Below, in pieces: positions 61,362 to 63,387 of a stretch of DNA of 64,000 nt. The position numbers were made by a program, and so were the translations under genes. Below the pieces are notes generated by a model. The model worked only from the letters and a program-made list of their open reading frames with translations. It searched no databases and was not told the origin of the DNA. Origin of the DNA: Aequorivita todarodis (GTDB lineage Bacteria > Bacteroidota > Bacteroidia > Flavobacteriales > Flavobacteriaceae); NCBI RefSeq assembly GCF_028561335.1, contig NZ_JAQQTG010000003.1:1-64000 (forward strand). The letters are read 5' to 3'. Position 1 is the first letter of the stretch; every line of letters begins with the position of its first letter.

Positions 61362-61381
61362 CGGTGGAATATTTACCGCAA
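61362..61381 (+). repeat. 20-bp direct repeat, left of the TIR cassette
   Basis: CGGTGGAATATTTACCGCAA, 25 bp after the HD-gene stop. An identical copy in the same orientation lies at 63368-63387, on the far side of the TIR pair. The arms CGGT/ACCG also make a small hairpin. Confidence 0.9.
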
Positions 61382-61593: not shown

Positions 61594-62061
61594 ATGGCAG
61601 ATTCTTCACAAAGAAAAGTTCAGATCTTCACATCCTACGCTCACGAAGATGAGGACCTTAAAAACGAAATGGACAAATACCTTAAGGTATTAAAACGCTC
61701 CGGAAAAATCGACGCTTGGAACGATAGGGCTCTTATTGCGGGCCAGGAATGGAATGATTCCATCATGAACGAATTGCGGAAGGCAGATGTAATTTTGCTC
61801 CTAATCAGTGTGGACTTTAATGCTTCAGACTTTATTTGGGACAAAGAGTTGGCAGAAGCCATGCGCCGCCACGAAGCGGGCGAGGCTTATGTAGTGCCCA
61901 TTATTCTTAGAAACTGCAAATGGACCTCTTTGCCTTATGCAAAATTGCAGGCTTTGCCCCGCAATGCCCGTCCAATCTTGGACTACCCAGATCGGGATGC
62001 TGCGTTTACGGAAGTGGCAGACGGGATCGAGCGGCTCGTTGACCATATTTTGGCAAAATAA
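61594..62061 (+). CDS. Stand-alone TIR-domain protein (155 aa)
   Basis: Start ATG 61594 (MADSSQRKVQIFTSYAHED); a TTG three codons upstream is less likely. The whole protein is one TIR_2-type domain. Strand A with the SYAHEDE loop is present, as are WNDRALIAGQEWNDSI, ADVILLLISVDFNASDF and box WDKELAEAMRRHEAGEA, whose Glu is the expected catalytic residue of NAD+-cleaving TIRs, then VVPIILRNCKW. Bacterial TIRs cleave NAD+ or make cyclic-ADP-ribose signals in anti-phage defence (for example ThsB). No sensor domain is attached; the next gene is its likely partner. Confidence 0.88.
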   Translation: MADSSQRKVQIFTSYAHEDEDLKNEMDKYLKVLKRSGKIDAWNDRALIAGQEWNDSIMNELRKADVILLLISVDFNASDFIWDKELAEAMRRHEAGEAYVVPIILRNCKWTSLPYAKLQALPRNARPILDYPDRDAAFTEVADGIERLVDHILAK

Positions 62062-62113
62062 TTTGCTGTATGAGTATAGTAGTTATTTAAACTAACCAAT
62101 AAAATTTTTTAAA

Positions 62114-63280
62114 ATGGCAACCAATCAGTCAGAAGTATCCACAGATACAATAAACATCTATTTTTTAGCGGCACCGGAGGATGAACAACAGTGTATTGCC
62201 GTAAAAAAATATCTTGGCCCTGTAATAAGAAATTCAAAACGGCCCATTGAAATTGAAAGCGATTTTGAAATTCCGCCAGGGCAGGATGTAAAGCAATACA
62301 AAGAGAAATTGTATCAGGCAGATATTGTACTCGCTTTTATAAGTGCCGATTTTATCAACGATGATGAAACGTATCTGCGCACGCAAAAAGTGATAGAACG
62401 GTACAACAGAAACGAAACCGTAATGCTCCCTATTTTGGTTCGCAACTGTATGTGGAAATCTACTCCGTTTGTAAACCTGCCATTCTTGCCAAAAAACATC
62501 CAACCCCTTAACAACAAGCAATTTTGGAACAGTGAAGACGATGCCTTAACGGCGGTAGTAACCGATATTTATGAGGCCATACAGAATTTCAGCTATGAGG
62601 ATAAAGAGGAATCTGATTTAGCTGAAGAAAAAGTTTCTGAATTGTTGACCGAGACCCATATTGAAAGAACACCACCAGAACCTGAAACGAATGGGACGGC
62701 AAGCGATAATGAGGCACCCCATGTTGAAAAAACAAAGGAAAAAGTAGAAACCAAAAATGTTGCGCAACACCCGCCTAAAGCGAAACCCAAAAACATCCAG
62801 AACGTCGCCATGGACGTGGATTGGCGAAAAAGCTACTTCAAGGATGTGCTGTGGAAACGTGCCGTGGCCTTTATTCTGGACAATATAATCACCGCAATTC
62901 CTTCCATATTAATAGCCGTTGTATTATGGTCGCTGGTGTCGGTACTTATTACTGATGCGGAAGATGTTTCTGATACCGAGTTTACTTTTATTACCCTTTT
63001 CAGCTTTTTCTTCTACTTTATTATTTGTGCCATTTTCGAATCTTCCAAATATCGGGGCACTTTTGGCAAACAGATTATGAAACTGGAAATTACAGATAGA
63101 AATGGGCATCGGGTTTCTTTTCTTAAAGCCTTTGTGCGAAATATTTTCCGAATGCTTACAGCCATTTCCTATCTTTTGGTAATTCCTTTTATCCTTCAAA
63201 TTTTCACATTTCTTAAAACCAAAAAATTCTTTCACGATCAAATCTCATATACGGTAGTGGGTGAAAAGATGAAGCGGTAA
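62114..63280 (+). CDS. TIR-like domain fused to an RDD membrane domain (388 aa)
   Basis: Residues about 10-160 align with the TIR of the preceding gene (FLAAPEDEQQ; ADIVLAFISADFINDDE; LPILVRNCMWKSTPF). The catalytic-Glu position (WDKEL in the neighbour) reads YLRTQ, so it is probably a non-enzymatic pseudo-TIR. A charged linker (about 160-235) follows. The C-terminus is an RDD domain (about 245-385) with about three membrane helices (RAVAFILDNIITAIPSILIAVVLW, FFFYFIICAIFE, AFVRNIFRMLTAISYLLVIPFIL). It lies 52 bp after the TIR gene. I infer a membrane-anchored partner of the soluble TIR. Confidence 0.88.
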   Translation: MATNQSEVSTDTINIYFLAAPEDEQQCIAVKKYLGPVIRNSKRPIEIESDFEIPPGQDVKQYKEKLYQADIVLAFISADFINDDETYLRTQKVIERYNRNETVMLPILVRNCMWKSTPFVNLPFLPKNIQPLNNKQFWNSEDDALTAVVTDIYEAIQNFSYEDKEESDLAEEKVSELLTETHIERTPPEPETNGTASDNEAPHVEKTKEKVETKNVAQHPPKAKPKNIQNVAMDVDWRKSYFKDVLWKRAVAFILDNIITAIPSILIAVVLWSLVSVLITDAEDVSDTEFTFITLFSFFFYFIICAIFESSKYRGTFGKQIMKLEITDRNGHRVSFLKAFVRNIFRMLTAISYLLVIPFILQIFTFLKTKKFFHDQISYTVVGEKMKR

Positions 63281-63367: not shown

Positions 63368-63387
63368 CGGTGGAATATTTACCGCAA
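63368..63387 (+). repeat. 20-bp direct repeat, right of the TIR cassette
   Basis: Same 20 bases and same orientation as 61362-61381. It lies 87 bp after the RDD-gene stop and 22 bp before the end of the convergent radical SAM gene. The copies bracket exactly the two TIR genes. Confidence 0.9.

Follow-up and report, generated by a model that had tools for sequence, protein, structure and literature searches.

A two-gene TIR locus of Aequorivita todarodis pairs a putative NAD+-cleaving TIR with a pseudo-TIR–RDD membrane protein

Type II Thoeris, composed of ThsB and a TM-macro ThsA, is a compact locus that joins a soluble TIR enzyme candidate to a membrane protein. The plant pair RPS4-RRS1 brings together two TIRs, which form a heterodimer; RPS4 and RRS1 are plant nucleotide-binding leucine-rich repeat (NLR) receptors. 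PD-T4-6, a system modeled in PADLOC, has an N-terminal kinase part. We compared with these systems a two-gene locus of Aequorivita todarodis (assembly GCF_028561335.1), located in the first 64,000 nucleotides of the forward strand of contig NZ_JAQQTG010000003.1. This whole stretch is called the window. The first gene encodes a soluble TIR (TIR1), and the second encodes a diverged TIR (pTIR) fused to an RDD membrane domain (pTIR-RDD). The genes and their parts are as follows, in window positions.

61594..62061, plus strand: TIR1 gene, 155 residues, a soluble single-domain TIR with the catalytic-type Glu E85.
62114..63280, plus strand: pTIR-RDD gene, 388 residues, a pseudo-TIR / linker / RDD membrane protein.
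62150..62593, plus strand: pseudo-TIR domain, residues about 13-160, without the catalytic Glu; its low-confidence model is TIR-like.
62498..62542, plus strand: pTIR-specific betaE/EE-loop motif PLNNKQFWNSxDDA, residues about 129-143, with 12 of 15 positions invariant in five diverged lineages.
62594..62809, plus strand: variable charged linker, residues about 161-232, with a ratio of nonsynonymous to synonymous substitution rates (dN/dS) of 0.21-0.37 and a low predicted local distance difference test score (pLDDT).
62810..63277, plus strand: RDD membrane domain, residues about 233-388, with R249, D256, and D375 invariant.

The two genes are co-oriented, with 52 bp between them. TIR1 matched Pfam TIR_2 (PF13676) at 1.5e-12, above the cut-off, and the PADLOC ThsB profile (PDLC00420) at 2e-51 (173 bits), as a ThsB-type TIR does. 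The second protein matched Pfam RDD at 1e-18 over residues 246-378, and its TIR_2 match of 22.7 bits fell under the Pfam cut-off of 28. It also matched the ThsB profile (1.9e-18). The profile-profile comparison of pTIR with TIR1 gave a probability of 99.2 (E 2.9e-19), and BLASTP between both window proteins gave 2e-16. By these three sequence comparisons, the N-terminal part of the second protein is a TIR by ancestry. The locus differs from Thoeris in that its membrane protein is pseudo-TIR plus RDD, with no macro, SIR2, or SLOG match in the Pfam scan. No ThsA gene (SIR2-SLOG or TM-macro) was found among the neighbors, the whole genome not having been searched for ThsA. Because no ThsA stands beside it, the pair is not Thoeris as defined.

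The pair was found in eight members, and TIR1 lay directly upstream of pTIR-RDD on the same strand in all eight. Absence of co-conservation had been named as what would refute the original prediction; the two genes proved to be adjacent and in the same order throughout. The presence of the pair in eight genomes, together with dN/dS values far below 1, ruled out chance or mis-called open reading frames (ORFs).

The catalytic states of the two TIRs were as first proposed: all eight TIR1 kept the Glu, all eight pTIRs were without it, and no aligner put a Glu there. Of the 82 TIR domains collected, 71 had the Glu, including every TIR1, and the pTIRs made up 8 of the 11 without it. E85 of TIR1 was invariant in the seven aligned members and aligned with a Glu in the Cat1 and AbTir chains; from this alignment and from what is known of Cat1 and AbTir, we take it to be the catalytic Glu. 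The Glu column of pTIR contained a substitution or a one-residue deletion, depending on the aligner. Further changes were a betaA L-A (L-S in the Chitinophagaceae member) opposite the S-Y of TIR1, and F or Y opposite the BB-loop R. Judged by sequence, pTIR is an inactive domain. TIR1 has the TIR domain and the Glu of TIR NAD+-cleaving enzymes and should cleave NAD+, as inferred from its family; pTIR-RDD lacks the Glu.

The conservation of the TIR faces was then compared over five diverged lineages, with TIR segment limits that we assigned from the alignment. In TIR1, betaC (0.82) and betaD (0.81) were the best conserved, the BB loop was high (0.76), CC+alphaC stood at 0.70, the betaE/EE stretch was low (0.58), and betaA (0.54) and alphaB (0.52) were lower still. 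In pTIR, betaE/EE reached 0.87, and BB and CC+alphaC were 0.45 and 0.47, respectively. Just 6 of 147 sliding windows of pTIR were as high as its EE stretch, and 22 of 147 were as low as its CC+alphaC. For TIR1, 67 of 144 windows were as high as CC+alphaC, which is average for this protein, and 126 of 144 were as high as EE, which is low. On average, EE minus the mean of BB and alphaC was 0.39 for pTIR and -0.14 for TIR1. The same contrast in other TIRs was -0.08 (standard deviation 0.18) over 1191 pairs from 60 rows, and one pair reached 0.39; these background pairs were drawn from 60 of the 66 other TIR rows with a partner at 40-75% identity. The motif FW in the EE stretch was present in none of the 66 other TIRs. 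In known TIR enzymes, the betaE/EE loop is the side of one TIR that completes the active site of the next. Thus, as far as the alignments tell, the unusual conservation of pTIR lies where a catalytic neighbor would need it, whereas TIR1 keeps the catalytic side. These opposite conserved faces are the main, indirect argument for a hetero-TIR complex, and they lend indirect support to the scaffold or partner role first suggested for the membrane protein.

The reading we favor, at somewhat short of an even chance, is a hetero-TIR complex at the membrane, in which TIR1 is the enzyme and pTIR-RDD is the half-site partner. At the inner membrane, the two gene products would form a TIR-based switch for immunity or cell death. 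The putative NAD+-cleaving enzyme TIR1 would be held by pTIR-RDD as a non-catalytic membrane partner. The betaE/EE-loop face of pTIR would meet the BB-loop/Glu face of TIR1, giving a heteromeric TIR complex whose TIR1 site is completed or blocked by the membrane subunit. This subunit could scaffold, activate, or restrain TIR1. Some trigger, which phage might induce, would alter the RDD part or the complex, and the triggered TIR1 would deplete NAD+ or make a signal. The physical interaction, the sign of control (activating or restraining), the trigger, and the defense role are all inferred. A bolder form, which we consider possible rather than probable, is a split TIR: pTIR may have given up the catalytic face and specialized as a half-site that completes or caps TIR1 in trans, wired to a sensory or ion-conducting RDD part. 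Such a pair would work much like the plant enzyme/pseudo-enzyme TIR pair, but bound to the membrane.

The plant pair was also met in the structure comparison. The best fold match of the pTIR model was a chain of the RPS4-RRS1 heterodimer, although the model is of low confidence and other TIRs were tied or nearly so; the matching rows span about residues 9-162. By sequence, the alignment of the second protein matched one PDB chain, at E 0.047. The chain is that of a de novo designed protein, and the match was taken as chance. Unlike the pair described here, the plant receptors are not membrane RDD proteins. In that pair, the RRS1 TIR restrains the RPS4 TIR. By analogy, pTIR-RDD could be a membrane-bound restraint that keeps a toxic TIR1 off, so that loss of the brake kills the cell. 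Since pseudo-TIR and enzyme have a common ancestry, the one would be a natural blocker of the other. Among precedents for restraint, SppI is an RDD protein that inhibits SppA, its partner, according to a passage of PMC7568657, and amoebae tolerate the TIR protein TirC owing to its N-terminal membrane helix, according to a passage of PMC13142454. However, TIR1 comes first in the operon, and a conserved EE face would be just as compatible with activation. We regard restraint as unlikely. It and the favored hetero-TIR complex involve the same physical contact with opposite sign.

The original prediction also described a three-helix RDD part. The window protein has three hydrophobic segments (about 261-279, 290-308, and 348-366), and helices span 237-278, 285-309, and 336-355/357-369 in its AlphaFold2 model, in agreement with that description. 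The relative in the Flavobacteriaceae metagenome-assembled genome (MAG) has four hydrophobic segments instead. R249, D256, and D375 were invariant in the seven aligned members; taking R, D, and D as the RDD signature residues is our own reading of the motif. By these residues in its membrane domain, pTIR-RDD belongs with the RDD family, as do SppI and the Halobacillus RDD protein. Those two proteins act as a protease inhibitor and an antiporter, respectively, with no TIR domain mentioned in the passages of PMC7568657 that we cite. Because the three residues are invariant, the RDD part is possibly more than an anchor. In the same passages, 4 of 6 conserved R or D residues of the Halobacillus protein were needed for antiport. 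The RDD part may alternatively be a pore effector.

These residues also bear on a second-messenger relay similar to type II Thoeris, in which TIR1 would make a signal from NAD+, pTIR would be its receptor, and RDD would oligomerize or open and damage the membrane. The relay shares the logic of ThsB and TM-macro ThsA, where ThsB nucleotides activate a membrane effector (as outlined in part of PMC11204291), and the ThsB score of TIR1 agrees with it. A membrane part exceeding an anchor role would suit it, as would the report of Halobacillus RDD as a Na+(Li+,K+)/H+ antiporter (PMC7568657, in part). The RDD part also matched the C-terminal part of the PADLOC PD-T4-6 model (positions 320-471 of 476; 4.9e-10), a system that differs in having no TIR part. 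In the part of PMC11514479 that concerns it, PD-T4-6 is mentioned with a kinase-related C-terminal module, and the phenotype that a Streptococcus homologue conferred on Lactococcus was very mild. Against the relay, the usual nucleotide side of pTIR is lost or varied (betaA S-Y, BB-loop R, Glu, and variable alphaC), its conserved patch is the EE loop, and the macro, SLOG, and SIR2 domains were not matched. The relay appears somewhat unlikely.

The eight members were distributed over two phyla. Four are Aequorivita-type: the window, Aequorivita sp. CIP111184 (L024), A. lipolytica (L025), and a same-genus genome (G021, locus L155). The other four are MAGs, labeled in their records as Flavobacteriaceae (L028), Chitinophagaceae (L027), and Chloroflexota (L026 and L029). 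The gap between TIR1 and pTIR-RDD was 34-71 bp in seven members and 297 bp in L026. Identity to the window was 60-94% for TIR1 and 43-81% for the partner (seven aligned rows each). The alignments A1 (pTIR-RDD) and A2 (TIR1) contain seven of the eight members; L155 was left out and added in scripts.

A search of an 84,980-species collection, made with six short patterns from one sequence, found six relatives of the second protein. Among 59 related genomes, four had full-length matches, including the own genome, and two of these were records also among the six relatives. Within the genus, 4 of 28 genomes had full-length matches. Of 395 Bacteroidota genomes, 24 gave a match, full-length only in the own genome; of 400 Chloroflexota genomes, 15 did so, full-length only in G453. 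Two carrier-centered families gave 1 of 107 and 1 of 52 genomes, each the carrier itself. The phylum scans scored up to four (profile A1) or nine (profile A2) candidates per genome, and the counts of absence are lower bounds. The pair is rare and sporadic over the two phyla.

The TIR1 profile gave more than 300 bits for the four carriers among the 59 genomes, and the next score was 84. The next score was 202 (G121) after the own genome in Bacteroidota and 188 after G453 in Chloroflexota. No orphan TIR1 was seen at family level in these three sets. In 27 larger loci (L024-L029 and L135-L155; ORFs of at least 90 residues), members scored at least 259 bits with the pTIR profile and every other TIR at most 84, and no RDD match was found outside the members. 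Other fusions of the pTIR domain were rejected, as pTIR scores and RDD matches gave none in these loci. RDD proteins without TIR are present in relatives.

Two members carry additional domains. An FHA domain precedes pTIR-RDD in L027 (1.8e-14; L027 7599-9038), which suggests phospho-dependent control. In L026, EAD7 follows TIR1 (2.2e-10, above the cut-off), a fusion seen in one of the eight members; the other seven TIR1 are single-domain in length and thus differ from the EAD-linked conflict systems. The L026 genome had 17 EAD7 matches, 16 above the cut-off, and the other seven carrier genomes had none. Its EAD7 also occurs in kinase-TPR and NTPase-like proteins, as read by eye from two translations without family search. 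Kaur, Aravind, and co-workers describe EADs as adaptors in conflict systems (passages of PMC8195603 and PMC7159879), and the word RDD is absent from the main text of both papers. The L026 EAD7 is a single link of the pair to these systems.

All four Aequorivita carriers have the pair directly after an HD phosphohydrolase gene. In all 16 non-carrier genus genomes examined, HD is followed by something else: a radical SAM gene (8), family F10 (5), family F21 (2), or an unrelated gene (1). HD and radical SAM genes are 4 bp apart in G005, and the pair lies between them in the window. In the non-carrier G002, two unrelated genes stand behind HD (L187 3215-5001), and the site may accept different inserts. 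A perfect direct repeat brackets the two genes in this genome only:

61363..61381, plus strand: 19-bp direct repeat, left copy.
63369..63387, plus strand: 19-bp direct repeat, right copy.

The match extends to 25 nt at 92%. Chance expectation at up to three mismatches is 0.04 matches in the window, and neither the window nor another 287,558 bases of this genome contained a further copy at this level. No exact copy was present in any examined locus of another genome, and two of four empty-site loci had one three-mismatch match to the 17-bp core. A recent mobile insertion was not called, as the three other Aequorivita carriers share the insertion site without the repeat and exact copies were missing elsewhere. 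The pair had no match in 50,697 phage records and, among 72,556 plasmid records, none that covered more than 80% of the query; eight plasmid records had a partial TIR-side match of at most 40% of the query. Viral contigs gave 61 pattern matches, with no relative among them. Carriage by phage, plasmid, or virus was rejected for these collections.

Selection was estimated from the four Aequorivita pairs (six comparisons, Nei-Gojobori, some dS above 1). dN/dS was 0.050-0.070 for TIR1, 0.034-0.067 for pTIR, 0.127-0.209 for RDD, 0.207-0.367 for the linker, and 0.064-0.108 for the neighboring HD gene. Within Aequorivita, pTIR is constrained as strictly as TIR1, and this equal purifying selection ruled out a decaying pTIR gene. 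No arms-race diversification was found in either TIR.

This low dN/dS, the absence of an arms-race sign, the phage and plasmid results, and the single chromosomal site beside housekeeping genes in four same-genus carriers would all fit a housekeeping or stress-sensing membrane module outside defense, for example in ion or osmotic sensing. Nearest to the pair in the window stand an acyltransferase gene, the HD gene, and the radical SAM gene, and no defense gene was seen beside it. Of five window proteins compared with PADLOC, only a TerB-DnaJ protein matched beyond the pair, weakly (PDC-S48, 0.0053). A defense-island context, which the original prediction proposed to check, was thus not seen, the nearest genes being mostly of housekeeping type; a defense-island or mobile-element location is usual, not obligatory, for defense systems. 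However, 24 of 28 genus genomes had no full-length match, and occurrence was sporadic in two phyla. The EAD7 fusion in one member also opposes a housekeeping role, as does a TPR-cyclase near the pair in L028, which matched the PADLOC Pycsar cyclase PycC at 3.6e-16 and was the sole match among 10 neighbor proteins of the four MAG loci. We consider a housekeeping module very unlikely. The sparse spread and the one TIR1-EAD7 fusion make a defense role plausible.

The inheritance of the pair was examined with trees. In a tree of 82 TIRs, whose bootstrap had not settled, the pTIRs grouped together (100/100) behind a long stem (2.18), and the TIR1s formed one group against pTIR, inside which the G121 protein may fall with weak support (87/12). 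In approximately unbiased (AU) tests, the pTIR tree was accepted by the TIR1 data (p-AU 0.49) and by the RDD data (0.33). As the pTIR tree was accepted by all three data sets, the pair is best read as co-inherited, with noise or exchange among relatives. A local tree built from four genes in 20 genomes, with many weak supports, placed the carriers in scattered positions, which speaks against their being one clade of the genus. One gain with losses, or exchange between species, is possible.

Other TIR genes were noticed during the searches. G121 (L135 3220-12470) contains the best-scoring TIR outside the family, within a run of TIR genes that includes a TPR-S/MAP3K_TRAF_bd protein, a solo TIR, an LRR-Roc-TIR, and further TIR_2 and ThsB_TIR proteins. 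G475 has two adjacent TIR-like genes (L133 1-1962 and 2158-3243) with the Glu replaced by D and V; the second matched weakly, and its branch in the tree is very long. G805 has an adjacent TIR pair (L136 6460-7218 and 7320-9878) of 252 and 852 residues, the latter with two TIR-like regions. The own genome has two other TIR genes (L001 490-1863 and L003 1471-2988), one with a Fib_succ_major domain and one with a DUF4062 match.

Several points weigh against the hetero-TIR complex as a defense switch. The TIR segment limits came from the alignment without a confident model, and pLDDT was below 50 in strand E of pTIR and in the greater part of its EE loop. CC+alphaC of TIR1 was average, CC+alphaC of pTIR was low but not extreme, and EE was not the lowest segment of TIR1, so the face contrast rests mainly on the pTIR EE loop. 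The 1191 background pairs are not independent, and the EE residues may be conserved for contact with a ligand or a protein other than TIR1. Only eight members were available, four of them from one genus. The pTIR data rejected the TIR1 and RDD trees (p-AU 0.001 and 0.013, respectively), the RDD data rejected the TIR1 tree (0.008), and the TIR1 data rejected the RDD tree (0.011). No defense-gene neighborhood was seen among the nearest genes. The TIR1/pTIR-RDD interaction, the NADase activity, and the role against phage are predictions from sequence.

The original prediction knew of no named defense system with this pair, and our searches agreed. No paper among the open-licence papers searched combined 'TIR domain' and 'RDD domain'; one paper contained TIR, RDD, and phage, the first two words in a figure legend on CRISPR-linked proteins. 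The PADLOC and NCBIfam scans had no model naming a TIR plus TIR-RDD pair. Within these sources, the pair is a so far undescribed variant of two-gene TIR systems. TIR enzymes need a neighboring TIR to complete the active site. If the proposed complex is true, one copy with the catalytic face and one with the partner face would let the two TIR halves be separated genetically. RDD, a common but poorly understood domain, would acquire a definite function within a TIR system, and bacterial TIR systems would gain a membrane-tethered architecture.
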